A stretch of 64,000 nt of DNA, taken from contig NZ_JAMXST010000001.1 of the NCBI RefSeq assembly GCF_024124905.1, forward strand, positions 992,001-1,056,000, read 5' to 3'. Made by a program: the position numbers and the translations under genes. Below the pieces are notes generated by a model that saw only the letters and a list, made by a program, of their open reading frames with translations, was not told the origin of the DNA and ran no database searches. This document shows positions 8,803 through 46,377 of this stretch, piece by piece; within the stretch, counting starts at the first letter, position 1; each line of letters starts with the position of its first letter. Source of the stretch: Cellulosimicrobium cellulans (GTDB taxonomy: Bacteria; Actinomycetota; Actinomycetes; Actinomycetales; Cellulomonadaceae).

Positions 8803-8843
8803 GACGGGCTCGGGTGTGGGTGGCGGGGCGTAGCGTCCTCGGG

Positions 8844-9752
8844 ATGAGCGCAGCGACGGAGACAGGGTCGGGGATCAAGGTCGGGGTGGTCGGGAGCTTC
8901 GGCTCCGCGGCCCAGGTGCTGGACATGGCGGTCGGCGCCGAGGAGTCCGGCTGGGACGGGTTCTTCTCGTGGGACGGGCTGAGCCTGCTGTCGATGCCCG
9001 TCGACACGTTCGACCCGTGGGCGGTGCTCGCCGCAGCGGCGGTCCGGACCGAGCGCATCGCGCTCGGGGCGATGGTCTTCGCCCTCCCGCGCCGCCGGCC
9101 GTGGGAGGTCGTGCGGCAGGCGCTCACCGTGGACCACCTGTCGGGCGGACGCCTGGTCCTGCCCGTCGGCGTGGGCGTGCTCGACGACGGCGGCTTCTCC
9201 GCCGTCCCGGGCCAGCCCCAGTCCCTGCGTGAGCGCGCGGAGCTGCTCGACGACGCGATCGCCTACCTCGACCGCGCCTGGTCGGGCGAGAAGTTCACCT
9301 TCGACGGCACGCACGTGCACGCGGGCGAGATGCTGTTCCTCCCCCGACCCGTGGAGCGCCCGGTCGTCGGGCACCACGTGCCGGTGTGGCCCGTGGGCGT
9401 CTGGGACGCCGAGCGCCCGCCGCTGCGCTCGCTCGACCGCACGCTGCGCGCGGACGGGATCGTGCTGCAGCTCCGCGGCGAGCGCGGCTTCGACGTCCCC
9501 ACGCCCGACGACGTCTCCGCCCTGGTCGCCTGGCTCACCACGCGCCGTGCGGAGCTGGGCCTCGACGCGGGCCGCCCGTTCGACGTCGTCGTCCAGGGCG
9601 AGCTCCCGTCCGACCGTTCGGCAGCGGCGGACCAGCTCGCCGGCCTCGCCGACGCGGGCGCCACCTGGTGGGTCGAGTCCCGATGGAACCCCGAGACCGC
9701 GACCCCGGAGTCCCTCCTCGACGCCATCCACCAGGGCCCACCCCGCCCCTGA
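8844..9752 (+). CDS. LLM-class (luciferase-like) flavin-dependent oxidoreductase
   Basis: This 302-residue protein has the bacterial luciferase/F420-type TIM-barrel pattern: IKVGVVGSFGSAAQVLDMAVGAEESGWDGFFSWDG at the N-terminus, FDPWAVLAAAAVRTERIALGAMVFALPRRRPWEVVRQALTVDHLSGGRLVLPVGVG in the middle, and a C-terminal AGATWWVES segment. Such enzymes use FMN or F420 to oxidise small molecules; substrate and cofactor are not evident. ATG at 8844 is used because the upstream in-frame start adds 10 residues that do not match the family. It is flanked by hairpins on both sides and seems to be a single-gene transcript. Confidence 0.8.
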   Translation: MSAATETGSGIKVGVVGSFGSAAQVLDMAVGAEESGWDGFFSWDGLSLLSMPVDTFDPWAVLAAAAVRTERIALGAMVFALPRRRPWEVVRQALTVDHLSGGRLVLPVGVGVLDDGGFSAVPGQPQSLRERAELLDDAIAYLDRAWSGEKFTFDGTHVHAGEMLFLPRPVERPVVGHHVPVWPVGVWDAERPPLRSLDRTLRADGIVLQLRGERGFDVPTPDDVSALVAWLTTRRAELGLDAGRPFDVVVQGELPSDRSAAADQLAGLADAGATWWVESRWNPETATPESLLDAIHQGPPRP

Positions 9753-9846
9753 GGAGGCGAGGCGCCGACGGTGCGAGTCGCCGTCGTCCCCGATCCGTCC
9801 GCGCGAGTGACGTGTCGGCGACACGACCACGGGCGGGGTCTGGGGT

Positions 9847-9923
9847 GGTGACGACGGGTCGTGGTGGGCCTGGCGGGAGCGGGGCGAGGAACGAGCCCCG
9901 CGGATGGTAGACCCGTCGTCACC
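9847..9923. terminator. Long inverted repeat between convergent genes
   Basis: GGTGACGACGGGTC (9847-9860) pairs perfectly with GACCCGTCGTCACC (9910-9923). Inside the loop, GCGGGGC and GCCCCGC form a second stem. It lies between the convergent LLM oxidoreductase and leuD genes and can serve both as a terminator. Confidence 0.55.
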
Positions 9924-9954
9924 TCCCCCAGAGCCCGCCCCCGAGCCAGGAAGG

Positions 9955-10590
9955 TCAGACCGGCCGAGCAGCCTCGATCTCGACCTTCGGCAGCGTCTTC
10001 GCGGGCAGCGTCTTGGGCCGCCACGACGCCCGCGTCGCCTCGAACGCGGAGATCTCGTCCTCGTGCTGGAGGGTCAGGCCGATGTCGTCCAGACCCTCCA
10101 TGAGGCGCCAGCGCGTGTAGTCGTCGATCTGGAACGGCACGGTGACGTCCTGCGCGGACGCGGTGCGGTTGACGAGGTCCACGGTCACCTCGGTGCCGGG
10201 GTTGGTCTCGAGGATCTTCCAGAGGAGCTCGATGTCCTCCTGCGCGACGATGCCCGCGACGAGGCCCTGCTTGCCGGAGTTGCCGCGGAAGATGTCGGCG
10301 AAGCGCGACGCGAGCACGACGCGGAAGCCGTAGTCCTTGAGCGCCCACACGGCGTGCTCGCGCGACGAGCCGGTACCGAAGTCGGGGCCGGCGACGAGCA
10401 CGGAGCCCGCGCGGTAGGCGTCCTGGTTGAGGACGAACGTGGGGTCACCGCGCCAGGCGGCGAACAGCGCGTCCTCGAACCCCGTGCGCGTCACGCGCTT
10501 GAGGTAGACGGCGGGGATGATCTGGTCGGTGTCGACGTTGCTGCGGCGCAGCGGGACGCCGACGCCGGTGTGGGTCGTGAACTTCTCCAT
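9955..10590 (-). CDS. leuD: 3-isopropylmalate dehydratase small subunit
   Basis: The 211-residue LeuD pairs with LeuC to form isopropylmalate isomerase, and can also isomerise citramalate. Family signatures are [16 protein letters not shown] (~17-32), the substrate-binding [17 protein letters not shown] (~67-83) and the swivel-domain segment [14 protein letters not shown]. Length is usual. It lies 57 bases downstream of leuC on the same strand and is almost certainly co-transcribed with it. The ATG opening [14 protein letters not shown] is the standard N-terminus. Confidence 0.95.
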
Positions 10591-14566: not shown

Positions 14567-14639
14567 TACCCCCAACGGGATTTGAACCCGTGTTACCGCC
14601 GTGAGAGGGCGACGTCCTAGGCCGCTAGACGATGGGGGC
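14567..14639 (-). tRNA. tRNA-Glu (anticodon CTC)
   Basis: On the minus strand the 73-base gene starts GCCCCCATCGTCTAGCGGCC and ends with the T-loop GGTTCGAATCC and GGGGGTA. The acceptor stem closes with a G-U pair at 1:72, as in other actinobacterial tRNA-Glu. The anticodon loop CCTCTCA gives CTC. No CCA is encoded. Confidence 0.95.
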
Positions 14640-14738
14640 CTGTGGATCCTCGTACCGTTTCCGGTCCGTTTCTCCGTCGAGAACTCTACCTCATGTTTCG
14701 CGCGGTCTTGACCACGCGATCCGAGCCGGAGCTCTTCG

Positions 14739-14810
14739 CTGGGGTACCAGGACTCGAACCTAGACTAAGTGAACCAGAATCACTCGTGCTGCCAATTACA
14801 CCATACCCCA
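14739..14810 (-). tRNA. tRNA-Gln (anticodon CTG)
   Basis: On the minus strand the 72-base gene starts TGGGGTATGGTGTAATTGGC and ends GGTTCGAGTCC then TACCCCA plus discriminator G, matching the tRNA-Gln pattern. The anticodon loop TTCTGGT gives CTG. It lies 99 bases upstream of tRNA-Glu on the same strand and the two may be co-transcribed. Confidence 0.95.
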
Positions 14811-17460: not shown

Positions 17461-18639
17461 ATGGCACCTCCCGCACCCCGCACGGCCCGCACCGCACCAC
17501 CTCCCGTCGCGACGGCGAGCGCGTCCCGCCGCGCCGCGGGCTCCCGTGCGCTGCTGCCCGGGCTCGTGCTGGTCGCCGGGGCGACGGTCCTCGTGCTGCT
17601 CGGGGCGCGGCTCGTCCCGACGGTCTCCCCGCTCGTCGTCGCGCTCGTGCTCGGCGCGCTCGTCGCACCGGTCCTGGGCCGGGTGGGCAGGACCCGGCGC
17701 GGCGGAGCCACCGTCGCGGCGACCCGGCCCGGGGTCGCGTGGACGTCCCGCGTCGTCCTGCGCACCGGCGTCGTGCTGCTCGGCTTCCAGCTCTCGGTCC
17801 CCGAGGTCCTCGCGCTGGGCTGGCGCGGGCTCGTGGTCGTCACGACGACCCTCCTCGTCACCTTCACGGGCACGCTCGCCCTCGGTCGCGCGCTGCGGGT
17901 TTCGCGAGTCACCTCGCTGCTCGTCGCGACCGGGTTCTCGGTGTGCGGGGCCGCGGCGATCTCGGCGATGCAGGGCGTCGTCGCCGGTCCGGGACGCACC
18001 CCCGGGCAGGTCCGCGAGGACGACGACGGCGTCGCCGCGTCCCTCGCGCTCGTCACCGTCTACGGCACGCTCGCGATCGTCGCGCTGCCCTGGCTGGCGT
18101 CGGTGGTGGGGCTGAGCGACGACCAGGCCGGGCTCTGGATCGGCGCGAGCGTGCAGGAGGTCGCGCAGGTCGTCACGGCCGCCGGGACCATCTCGGACCC
18201 CGCCCTCGCGACCGCCACGGTCGCCAAGCTCGCGCGCGTCGCCCTCCTCGCCCCGCTCGTCACCGTCGCAGGCGTCGTCGTGGCCCGCGGGGCCCGGCGC
18301 GCGGCCGTCGCCCGGGTCGGCTCCACCGGCGCCGTCCACGGCGACGCCTCGGGGACGACGGCGCACGCGACCCCACCGCGGGTCGCGCCGGTGCCGTGGT
18401 TCGTCGTCGGGTTCGTGGCCGCGGTGGCGCTGCGCAGCCTGGGCGTCGTGCCGGCGCCCCTGCTCGCCGCGCTCGCGACCGCGACGACGCTCGCGTTCGT
18501 CGCCGCCATGTTCGCGCTCGGGCTCGGCGTGGACGTCCCGTACCTGCTGCGCACGGGGCGGCGCGCGCTCGTCCTCGGAGGCCTCTCGGCGCTCCTCGTC
18601 ACGACGACGGCCCTCGTCGGCGTCCTGCTCCTCACCTGA
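17461..18639 (+). CDS. YeiH-family putative sulfate/sulfite exporter
   Basis: This 392-residue membrane protein has about ten hydrophobic helices and the family (Cons_hypoth698/YeiH) signatures SRVVLRTGVVLLGFQLSVPEVLALGW, TGFSVCGAAAISAMQGVV and IGASVQEVAQVVTAAG. Members are predicted to export sulfate, sulfite or related anions; direct biochemical proof is limited. The N-terminal ~30 residues are Ala/Pro-rich and may be an extension. It is divergent from the LysR gene 70 bp away. Its 3' side opens directly into the GAGGTAGAGC repeat block. Confidence 0.8.
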   Translation: MAPPAPRTARTAPPPVATASASRRAAGSRALLPGLVLVAGATVLVLLGARLVPTVSPLVVALVLGALVAPVLGRVGRTRRGGATVAATRPGVAWTSRVVLRTGVVLLGFQLSVPEVLALGWRGLVVVTTTLLVTFTGTLALGRALRVSRVTSLLVATGFSVCGAAAISAMQGVVAGPGRTPGQVREDDDGVAASLALVTVYGTLAIVALPWLASVVGLSDDQAGLWIGASVQEVAQVVTAAGTISDPALATATVAKLARVALLAPLVTVAGVVVARGARRAAVARVGSTGAVHGDASGTTAHATPPRVAPVPWFVVGFVAAVALRSLGVVPAPLLAALATATTLAFVAAMFALGLGVDVPYLLRTGRRALVLGGLSALLVTTTALVGVLLLT

Positions 18640-18663
18640 CAGGTCCCCGTCGGCGGAGGACCT

Positions 18664-18772
18664 GGTCACGCGAGCGAGAACCGTGGTGGCGCGAGGTAGA
18701 GCCCTGGTCACGCGAGGTAGAGCCCTGGTCATTGACCAGGGCTCTACCTCGGCGGACCAGGGCTCTACCTCG
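18664..18772. repeat. GAGGTAGAGC repeat block, locus 1 (convergent junction)
   Basis: Three direct 21-bp units of the form GGTCACGCGAGGTAGAGCCCT begin at 18664 (degenerate), 18685 and 18706, followed by two inverted copies with the same 21-bp period ending at 18772. CGAGGTAGAGCCCTGGTCA (18713-18731) and its exact reverse complement (18733-18751) form a 19-bp perfect palindrome with a single-base spacer. The block lies between the convergent YeiH and HAD genes and includes the HAD stop codon. A bidirectional terminator function is likely; the tandem and inverted unit structure resembles REP/BIME elements. Confidence 0.8.
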
Positions 18773-19562
18773 GCGTGGGGGCCTCGGCGCGGGCGTGGAC
18801 GGCGATGCCGAGGGTCGCGGGCAGGTCGACCAGGGTGTGGACCACGTGCACGCCCGACGCGCGGGCCGACGTCGGGTCCTCCGGGTGCGGGCCGCCGCGG
18901 CGCGTGCCGGGTCGGTCGAGCCAGACCCCGACGAGGCCGGCCGCGAGCGCGGCGCGCGCGTCGACGTCGAGCTCGTCGCCTACGTACGCCGTGCGGGCCG
19001 GGTCGGTCCCGAGCCGGCGGCACGCCTCGGCGAACACGCGCGGGTCGGGCTTGCCGAACCCGAGCGTGTCCACCCCGACGAGCAGCGGGACGTCGGGCAG
19101 GCCCGCGGCCGCGAGCTTGCGGGTCTGCAGCTCGACGCGCGCGTTCGTCAGGGACCCCACGCGGACCCCCGCCGCGACGAGCGCGTCCACGACCGGGCGC
19201 GCGTCCTCGAACCCTGCCCACGAGGCCTCGAACGTGCCCCAGAAGAGGTCCTTCCAGTCCACGTACGCGGCGTCGTCGAGCAGCTCGCCGCCGAACGTCG
19301 CCTGGAGCTCGTTGGCCCGCGCCATGCGCTGCGCGTCGAAGTCGACCTCGCCGCGCGTGTACGCGCGGTAGTGCCCGTTGGGGTCGGAGCGCCACAGCGC
19401 GAGCACCTCGTCGTACCGGCTCTCGGGCAGGTGCGGGAGCCACACGCGCGACGCAGCGGCGATCGCCTCCGAGAACGCGGCGCGCGTGTCGACGAGCGTG
19501 TCGTCGACGTCGAACAGGACGCCCTCGACCGCCTCGGGGGCCGCCGAGACGCCGTCCGTCAC
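18765..19562 (-). CDS. HAD-superfamily hydrolase
   Basis: The protein has 265 residues. HAD motif I is [13 protein letters not shown] (~15-27) with the nucleophile and acid/base Asp. Motif II Thr is in [16 protein letters not shown], motif III Lys in [10 protein letters not shown], and motif IV acids in [18 protein letters not shown]. Substrate is probably a small phosphorylated metabolite, not further identifiable. The GTG start overlaps the gltX stop by 4 bases, so it is translated with gltX. The protein ends ...APTPR, and its TAG stop is part of the GAGGTAGAGC repeat. Confidence 0.85.
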
Positions 19563-44488: not shown

Positions 44489-44992
44489 GTGGCCAAGAAG
44501 TCGAAGTCGTCCGCGCACGCCGGCACGCCCGCGGTCGCGCTCCTCGAGCGCGAGGGCGTCGCCCACACGCTGCACCCGTACGAGCACGACCCGTCGAGCG
44601 ACCTGTCCTACGGGCTCGAGGCGGCCTCGGCGATCGGGGTGCCCGCGGAGCAGGTGTTCAAGACCCTGCTCGCGGTCGTCGACGGCGCCGCGCTCGTCGT
44701 GGGGATCGTGCCCGTCGACCGTCAGCTCGACCTCAAGGCCCTCGCCAAGGCGGCGGGCGGCAAGAAGGCGAGCATGGCCGAGCCCGCCGCGGCCGAGCGC
44801 GCGACGGGCTACGTCGTCGGCGGCATCTCGCCCCTGGGCCAGAAGCAGCGCCACCGCACGTTCCTCGACGACACCGCGCGCGCGTTCGACGCCGTCTACG
44901 TCTCGGGTGGCCGCCGCGGCCTCGACGTCGGCCTCGCGCCGTCGGACCTCCTGCGCCTCACGGCGGGCACCACGGCCCCGATCGCGAGGTAG
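44489..44992 (+). CDS. ybaK: YbaK/EbsC-type Cys-tRNA(Pro) deacylase
   Basis: The protein has 167 residues. The YbaK domain shows GTPAVALLEREGVAHTLHPYEHD, VPAEQVFKTLLAVVDGAALVVGIVPVDRQLDLKALAKAAGGKKASMAEPAAAERATGYVVGGISPLGQKQ, including the conserved Lys in VFKTLL and the GGISP loop. It hydrolyses Cys-tRNA(Pro) formed by ProRS error. The start is a GTG 25 bases after the VIT1-family stop. The protein ends ...APIAR and its TAG stop lies within the GAGGTAGAGC repeat. Confidence 0.9.
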   Translation: MAKKSKSSAHAGTPAVALLEREGVAHTLHPYEHDPSSDLSYGLEAASAIGVPAEQVFKTLLAVVDGAALVVGIVPVDRQLDLKALAKAAGGKKASMAEPAAAERATGYVVGGISPLGQKQRHRTFLDDTARAFDAVYVSGGRRGLDVGLAPSDLLRLTAGTTAPIAR

Positions 44993-45567: not shown

Positions 45568-46314
45568 ATGCCCCTCCCCGACCCGTCGTCCGTGCTGCCC
45601 GCGCAGATCGCGCAGAACCTCGCCCGGGTGCGGAGCAGGGTCGACGACGCCGCCCGCGCGGCCGGGCGTGCGCCGTCGGACGTGCGGCTGCTCGTGGCGA
45701 CCAAGACGCAGCCGGCGGACGCCGTGCGCGCGGTCGTCGAGGCCGGCGCGGACCTGATCGGCGAGAACCGCGTCCAGGAGCTCGTCGCGAAGGCCCCCGA
45801 CCTCGCCGACCTCGTGGCCGCGGGGCGTGTCGAGGTCCACATGATCGGCCACCTGCAGCGCAACAAGGTCAACCAGGTGCTCGCGACCGCCACGGGCGTC
45901 GAGAGCGTGGACTCGCTCGCGCTCGCCGAGGCGCTCGCGGCGCGCTGTGCGCGCGACGGCCGCGTGCTCGACGTCCTGGTCCAGGTCAACGTCTCGGGCG
46001 AGGAGTCCAAGTCGGGCGTCCGGCCCGACGACGCCCCCGCCCTCGCGACCGCCGTCGCGGCGCTCGACGGGCTGCGCCTGCGAGGCTTCATGACGATCGG
46101 CGCGAACGCCCCCGACGAGACGCTGGTGCGCGCGGGATTCGCGCGCCTGCGCGAGGTGCGCGACGCCGTCGCGGGCTCGGGCGCTCCCGGGACCGGAGAC
46201 GCGCGCGAGCTGTCGATGGGCATGAGCGGCGACCTCGAGCTCGCGATCGCCGAGGGCGCGACGATCGTCCGCGTCGGCACCGCCGTCTTCGGCCCGCGAC
46301 CCACGCCGAGGTAG
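45568..46314 (+). CDS. yggS: YggS-family pyridoxal phosphate homeostasis protein
   Basis: The protein has 248 residues with an alanine racemase-like TIM barrel. The PLP lysine is in RLLVATKTQPADAVR (~45), with GENRVQELVAK, HMIGHLQRNKVNQVL and VQVNVSGEESKSGV, and the C-terminal phosphate-binding SMGMSGDLELAIAEGATIVRVGTAVFG. It controls intracellular PLP levels and amino acid balance. In many actinobacteria it sits in the ftsZ-sepF cluster, but no division gene is nearby here. The chain ends ...RPTPR, with a TAG stop from the repeat. Confidence 0.9.
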   Translation: MPLPDPSSVLPAQIAQNLARVRSRVDDAARAAGRAPSDVRLLVATKTQPADAVRAVVEAGADLIGENRVQELVAKAPDLADLVAAGRVEVHMIGHLQRNKVNQVLATATGVESVDSLALAEALAARCARDGRVLDVLVQVNVSGEESKSGVRPDDAPALATAVAALDGLRLRGFMTIGANAPDETLVRAGFARLREVRDAVAGSGAPGTGDARELSMGMSGDLELAIAEGATIVRVGTAVFGPRPTPR

Positions 46315-46377
46315 AGCTCGCGGTCGCGACGTAGAACCCCGGGAGCTCTACCTCGCGACCGGCAGCTCTACCTCGCG
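46307..46377. repeat. GAGGTAGAGC repeat block, locus 3 (convergent junction)
   Basis: CGAGGTAGAGCT (46307-46318) pairs with AGCTCTACCTCG (46344-46355), and a second inverted copy (AGCTCTACCTCGCG, 46364-46377) follows 20 bases later. A diverged direct copy (GCGACGTAGAACCCCGGGA) starts near 46326. The block lies between yggS and the convergent lipoate ligase-like gene and contains the yggS stop codon. Confidence 0.75.

Follow-up and report, generated by a model that had tools for sequence, protein, structure and literature searches.

Intrinsic hairpin terminators are known in U-less and in bidirectional forms. REP/BIME elements with RAYT (PMC2817692) are high-copy intergenic repeats that occur in opposed orientation, build mosaics and serve as targets of insertion sequences. 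Insertion of IS110-type elements in REP repeats is also known (PMC1525189), and REP-targeting members of IS110/IS1111 include IS621, ISPa11 and ISPpu9 (PMC11208160, PMC11187229, PMC1525189). Such elements encode a protein with the DEDD_Tnp_IS110 and Transposase_20 domains and insert in fixed orientation in a dispersed intergenic repeat; their non-coding end, on the 5' side of the gene, includes a stretch identical to the target. Their bridge or seek RNAs hold a stretch matching each target strand (PMC11208160 and PMC11187229).

The repeat analysed here lies in a window of 64,000 nucleotides (the whole stretch of DNA analysed) from Cellulosimicrobium cellulans, where the original prediction had seen it as a dispersed REP/BIME-type element co-opted as a bidirectional terminator. 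We consider it probable that it is a genus-specific dispersed mosaic repeat that works as a bidirectional hairpin terminator and harbours an IS110 element. The repeat blocks in the window and the genes that flank the first of them are as follows:

17566..18639, plus strand: flanking gene, Pfam match to PF03601 (Cons_hypoth698)
18671..18688, plus strand: degenerate direct unit, CGAGCGAGAACCGTGGTG, in 21-bp phase; 13 of 18 positions match by eye
18692..18709, plus strand: full 18-bp direct unit
18713..18730, plus strand: full 18-bp direct unit, inner arm of a 19-bp perfect inverted repeat
18734..18751, minus strand: full 18-bp inverted unit, inner arm
18755..18772, minus strand: full 18-bp inverted unit
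18765..19562, minus strand: flanking gene, HAD-like hydrolase, Pfam match to PF00702
44985..45051, both strands: second array, ++--, inner minus unit truncated
46307..46375, both strands: third array, ++--, degenerate, period 20

In block 1 (18671-18772) the unit is an 18-bp motif followed by three free bases (CGAGGTAGAGCCCTGGTCnnn), units being called against the reference motif CGAGGTAGAGCCCTGGTC. Three direct and two inverted copies had been proposed; both inverted copies and two of the direct ones are full, and the third direct copy is degenerate. The proposed 19-bp perfect palindrome with a one-base spacer is present in the sequence as the innermost inverted repeat around the single base 18732 (by eye). 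It is enclosed in longer arms of 40 bp each (18692-18731 and 18733-18772), which are 93% complementary and 1 nt apart. The HAD-hydrolase gene takes its stop codon from the last inverted unit, whose TAG (18765-18767) lies on the minus strand. At the orthologous junctions (L226-L240) the array is absent in some genomes, for example G010 and G008, and in G012 and G013 a called gene of about 3 kb intervenes. Two tRNA genes detected by Rfam at 14567-14810 on the minus strand are unrelated to the repeats, and a tRNA link was sought in 20 loci and found in none.

The two further junctions at which the unit had been reported do carry it. Blocks 2 and 3 follow the plan of block 1 in a somewhat degenerate form, and all three blocks lie, as predicted, at convergent junctions, with flanking gene products that match Pfam families. 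Here too stop codons coincide with the repeat: the TAG stops of the genes at 44489-44992 and 45568-46314 fall inside the first unit of the second and of the third array, respectively. In another genome of the same species (G099) the site of the second array holds four direct units. Across the window, GCGAGGTAGAGC with at most two mismatches has 39 matches where 12.8 are expected, and none of 100 shuffles reaches this number.

The idea of a defined dispersed element with further copies in both orientations held at the scale of the genome. The exact 11-mer core CGAGGTAGAGC occurs 207 times (102+105) in the 4.67-Mb genome, whose contig C2 includes the window, against 13 occurrences (6+7) of the reversed pattern. 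Tandem pairs, counted as two units at 21-bp spacing with at most two mismatches, are present in 16 of 17 Cellulosimicrobium genomes (0 to 306 each; controls 0-2 each way), with none in G008, 1-3 in G003, G012, G013 and G014, 190 in the genome of the window and 306 in G006. The exact 11-mer was counted outside the genus as well: the genus genomes have 22-271 copies each and 83 sampled genomes of other genera in the family and order 0-34, several of the latter exceeding the reversed control (34 against 8 in G085). The tandem pattern beyond the genus was assessed only among the matches of a named-genome scan. Of the 80 loci with a tandem pair among the matches listed (97 stretches), 74 are titled Cellulosimicrobium. 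Among the same matches, two loci titled Sphaerisporangium align at 95-97% to Cellulosimicrobium loci and so look mislabelled; the other four have one pair each and do not align to loci of the genus. Amplification of the unit was seen only in Cellulosimicrobium, and we read the repeat as genus-specific. Viral spread was considered and set aside: viral contigs gave no match to the tip of the hairpin HP-A described below and one tandem-unit match (L307, GC 0.56), which fails to align to the genus loci.

Placement relative to genes was scored in 41 stretches (the window and L031-L070), which cover the genome matches on contigs C2-C4 save C4:781935 and C4:798017-798069, and end before contig C5. 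Random placement, including inside genes, had been named as evidence against a defined element, and this is not what was found: 61 of the 91 exact 11-mers are intergenic, 28 lie antisense within genes and only two in sense. Of the 31 intergenic clusters, 28 hold at least two units; 24 of the 28 genic ones are single units, which we take as background. Four multi-unit arrays lie inside called genes; genes were called by our own codon-usage caller, and such arrays may reflect over-long calls. The expectation that copies fall mainly between convergent genes was borne out as an enrichment and not as an exclusive rule. Of 24 intergenic gaps with units, 15 are convergent, eight codirectional and one divergent, compared with 71, 201 and 59 of all 331 gaps at the same loci (p=1.6e-5 for convergence; two clusters at the contig end in L045 are left out of the count). 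At 33 of the 38 gene 3' ends that face array gaps, the outermost unit lies in sense (p=4e-6). The stop codon is the TAG of the unit (CGAGGTAG) at nine of these 38 ends, and lies one period further at two more. Location, orientation, phase and copy number, together with the architecture of facing arrays, are direct observations.

The RNA folds of the three window blocks are far more stable than those of shuffled sequences on both strands (z from -4.8 to -11.1), and a stable hairpin shortly 3' of the stop codon is what an intrinsic terminator has. The likeness to such terminators lies in a strong hairpin right after stop codons, mostly between convergent genes; the differences are that the stems are built of one unit common to tens of loci and that no U-run follows, a search of window positions 18400-19000 having found no U-tract terminator. 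Perfect stems of at least 12 bp are also found in gaps of 30-400 bp without arrays: in 45% of 38 array-free convergent gaps, 13% of 103 codirectional and 2% of 53 divergent gaps, and in 0-0.4% of shuffled ones. A hairpin at convergent gene ends is thus a general habit of this genome. The position and orientation of the arrays, their folding and the hairpins at other convergent junctions all agree with a bidirectional terminator, and we suggest from sequence that the arrays are likely to be bidirectional, U-less hairpin terminators or 3'-end barriers at which termination is predicted.

The units stand mostly in sense just past a stop codon, and in most cases opposite them is an inverted array, which would serve the gene on the other side. 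On this reading, a hairpin could form from the two arrays in the transcript of either gene, with arms of 34-40 bp in the window, directly past the stop codon, and this would end transcription from both sides without a U-run and keep convergent transcripts apart. The arrays would lengthen and shorten as tandem repeats, the likeness of the arms being kept by template switching or by selection, and a unit so abundant could become the landing site of an IS110-family element. The 21-bp period, the free linkers, the 2-bp dyad and the stop codon inside the repeat lead to predictions on how convergent genes are kept separate in a high-GC genome.

The same anatomy counts against this best reading, because a terminator stem needs neither a common sequence at tens of loci nor an exact 21-bp period and free linkers. 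The distance between adjacent units is exactly 21 bp for 80 of 85 pairs from the genome of the window and for 254 of 280 pairs at other loci. Unit positions 1-9 and 15-17 are 82-99% constant, position 19 of the linker is nearly free, and positions 20-21 are mostly G or C without preference. GGT at positions 4-6 and 15-17 recurs every 10-11 bp, a spacing at which all GGT triplets of a unit would lie on the same helical face. Of 59 distinct junctions between facing arrays (centres of at most 40 nt), 43 have a centre of 2 nt. Some loci carry units of one orientation only (for example L069 4910-5026, ------) and are therefore unable to fold on themselves. The one divergent gap and the four multi-unit arrays within called genes likewise count against the reading. 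Since constancy of the unit, free linkers and exact period are not explained by the hairpin alone, a bound protein is the main rival: a specific DNA-binding protein would sit cooperatively on the units, on one helix face, as a polar barrier at gene ends that stops RNA polymerase or replication forks, or else would organise the nucleoid there, with the hairpin secondary. A period of exactly two helical turns with 18 constant and three free bases, the recurring GGT, the fixed orientation to the gene end and the precise dyad centre are all in its favour, and the shared sequence, period and linkers fit a protein-bound array at least as well as a terminator. We nevertheless judge it unlikely. No candidate protein emerged, PF01797 being the only family sought, and some orthologous sites change the unit sequence yet keep complementary inner arms, for which a protein array has no need. 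Orthologues of block 2 are of this kind, the inner arms being perfect in G006 and having one mismatch in G005. In favour of the terminator reading, nested arms match better than crossed arms (p=0.022), a modest effect with 19 of 44 junctions tied and five reversed.

The assignment to the REP/BIME type stands as an analogy and fails as membership. The repeat shares with that type its large number of intergenic copies in a genome, the mosaic blocks made of opposed repeats, the location at gene 3' ends and the use as an IS110 target. The described REP (PMC2817692) is a GTAG/GTGG-type tetranucleotide followed by a small palindrome, whereas here units are in tandem at 21 bp and the 18-bp unit is not self-complementary, so that a hairpin needs two facing units; GTAG itself is present within the unit. 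The RAYT-type transposase that the prediction had led us to look for was not found: Y1_Tnp/RAYT (PF01797) has no match in any of the 17 genus genomes, while five of 14 control genomes match. A REP/RAYT system was rejected on this absence. The block is BIME-like but not REP/RAYT, a genus-specific repeat in tandem-inverted form that lies at gene ends and is targeted by IS110. It offers a candidate BIME-like system for actinobacteria without a detected RAYT. Among the records listed in a literature search by titles and openings of abstracts, with subscription journals mostly outside its coverage, none described the repeat or HP-A.

The lack of RAYT in the 17 genomes also weakens the view of a selfish repeat, MITE-like or REP-like, that some transposase moves in trans and that settles at gene ends because its insertion there is harmless. 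Many copies, mosaic forms and five near-full-length cores in one genome would suit such a repeat, which we hold to be less probable still than the protein barrier. The comparison of G099 with the genome of the window (G000) at 17 listed HP-A loci of G099 bears on it: the element is at the same place in both genomes at all 17, and what differs is array composition (nine of 17 loci by the unit caller) and the presence of IS110. Places are thus shared and array lengths are not. This change of length within one species was observed directly, as were IS110 insertions inside the unit. A purely mutational origin, in which template switching during replication maintains perfect quasi-palindromes at convergent ends and multiplies units that serve no function, would account for near-perfect Watson-Crick arms and for the varying length at these nine loci, but it fails to predict the sense orientation, the stop-codon phase and one unit at tens of loci in several species, and is highly improbable.

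The analysis also brings out an IS110 element that has a dispersed repeat as its observed target. At five of the 17 compared loci (L315, L317, L320, L321 and L323) G099 has an insert of 1.38 kb, the copies being 99.7-100% identical to one another. Each insert lies inside a unit, directly after CGAGGTAGAGC, in the orientation of the unit, and its protein matches DEDD_Tnp_IS110 (E 4.1e-20) and Transposase_20 (E 7.7e-19) in Pfam. The copy at L323 is frameshifted. This transposase was found at none of the other loci searched, those of the window's own genome included. The non-coding left end of the element holds 13 nt (CGAGGTAGAGCCG) and 10 nt (GCCGTGGTCG) of the target; a target match of at least 12 nt arose in three of 2000 mononucleotide shuffles. 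The element appears to carry unit sequence in a putative guide RNA. The 13-nt match has the polarity of a left guide. The 10-nt match shares this polarity, where a right guide would be expected to show the complement. The element differs from the described REP-targeting IS110/IS1111 elements (PMC11208160, PMC11187229, PMC1525189) in that the target is the present 18-bp unit in an actinobacterium and in that only a left-guide-like match was found.

The most unusual by-product of the analysis is the hairpin HP-A, which many arrays flank in the layout [>>>] core [<<<]. The window has one copy:

9837..9935 (tip 9867-9911), plus strand: HP-A conserved-tip hairpin, without an array

This copy lies between the convergent genes 8814-9752 and 9955-10590, which encode a luciferase-like monooxygenase and an aconitase C-terminal-domain protein. 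Orthologous copies occur in seven other genomes, where seven of 42 pairs show compensated changes and some pairs are broken. In place of HP-A, a different perfect hairpin stands at this site in G009 and a near-perfect one in G007, which speaks for the terminator reading; G003, G013 and G014 lack HP-A and any long perfect stem, which speaks against it.

The tip (GTGGYGGGYCTGGCGGGAG / GAGGRACGA / CGGATGG) is nearly invariant and the outer stem of about 18-26 pairs is variable. An alignment of 46 sequences, drawn from this genus and from others, has 98.9% paired cells and 310 two-sided changes against a shuffled mean of 76.5 (reached in 0 of 500), and 41 further distinct sequences give 97.0% pairing and 271 such changes; both alignments were fitted to the model and lean towards structure. 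A MAFFT alignment of 29 genus sequences gives 98.7% pairing and 110 two-sided changes against 26.2. Wobble in the stem (GT 15 against AC 2 in A4, 16 against 4 in A5, 43 against 12 by regex) suggests a weak strand preference for the tip strand, which covariance alignment may favour and on which nothing is built.

In the genome of the window 21 of 27 HP-A copies have one stem in common, which points to recent spread, and 24 of the 27 loci have units within 200 bp. With the exception of L060, the units near HP-A are directed at the core; L221 and L201 each have one stray unit. The element takes three forms: arrays alone, arrays with HP-A, and arrays with HP-A, a middle part and a second hairpin, HP-B. 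The last form has a non-coding core of about 680 bp between facing arrays (L052:3760-4410, L058, L046, L045; 75-89% identity), which holds HP-A and HP-B as two long hairpins. A search with the core in its own genome yields 91 matching pieces, of which many are short stem matches; near-full-length cores number five with the query, the other four being 76-91% identical to it. A full composite at L045:6931-8165 lies near a 5S rRNA gene at a contig end, as would be expected of an rRNA operon terminator.

HP-A is found in 50 of 248 relatives and 16 of 75 sampled genera, its own included, and in two of 396 genomes of the phylum when 10 candidates per genome are scored (its own and one of the same order). 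In L052, L058, L045, L054 and the window, Rfam at gathering scores detects only one 5S rRNA and two tRNAs. The analysis exposes a conserved-tip hairpin in several genera of the order that, in the loci searched, reaches the gathering score of no Rfam family. Four matches to microRNA models in a permissive Rfam search of L058 3500-4500 were far below gathering scores (best E 0.0093) and were judged to be chance.

Outside the genus, the 30 HP-A loci of 12 genomes have no exact unit; eight are convergent, 12 codirectional, none divergent, seven lie within called genes and three are unresolved. Another 42 copies from four of these genomes divide into 13 convergent, 23 codirectional, one divergent and five within genes, at a median of 33 nt to the nearest facing stop. 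Where the neighbouring genes are codirectional, the tip lies on the strand opposite to them at 10 of 12 loci of the first set and 18 of 23 of the second, but at only seven of 13 in the window's own genome. It is possible, if doubtful, that two gene-end elements not described before come together in this system: the helically phased 21-bp arrays as the platform of a dedicated protein and as polar transcription barriers, and HP-A either as a signal for 3' ends that a factor recognises or as a mobile element of single-stranded DNA. As part of this joint reading, HP-A would be a structured Micrococcales motif with a nearly invariant tip of about 45 nt, as if a recognised tip had been grafted into local terminator hairpins. 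Outside the genus most loci have a stem of their own, also when they belong to the same genome (mean pairwise identity 0.51-0.79), with a common stem in some G103 copies. In a further genus (L276:1354-1594), three HP-A-like tips stand in tandem over about 240 bp.
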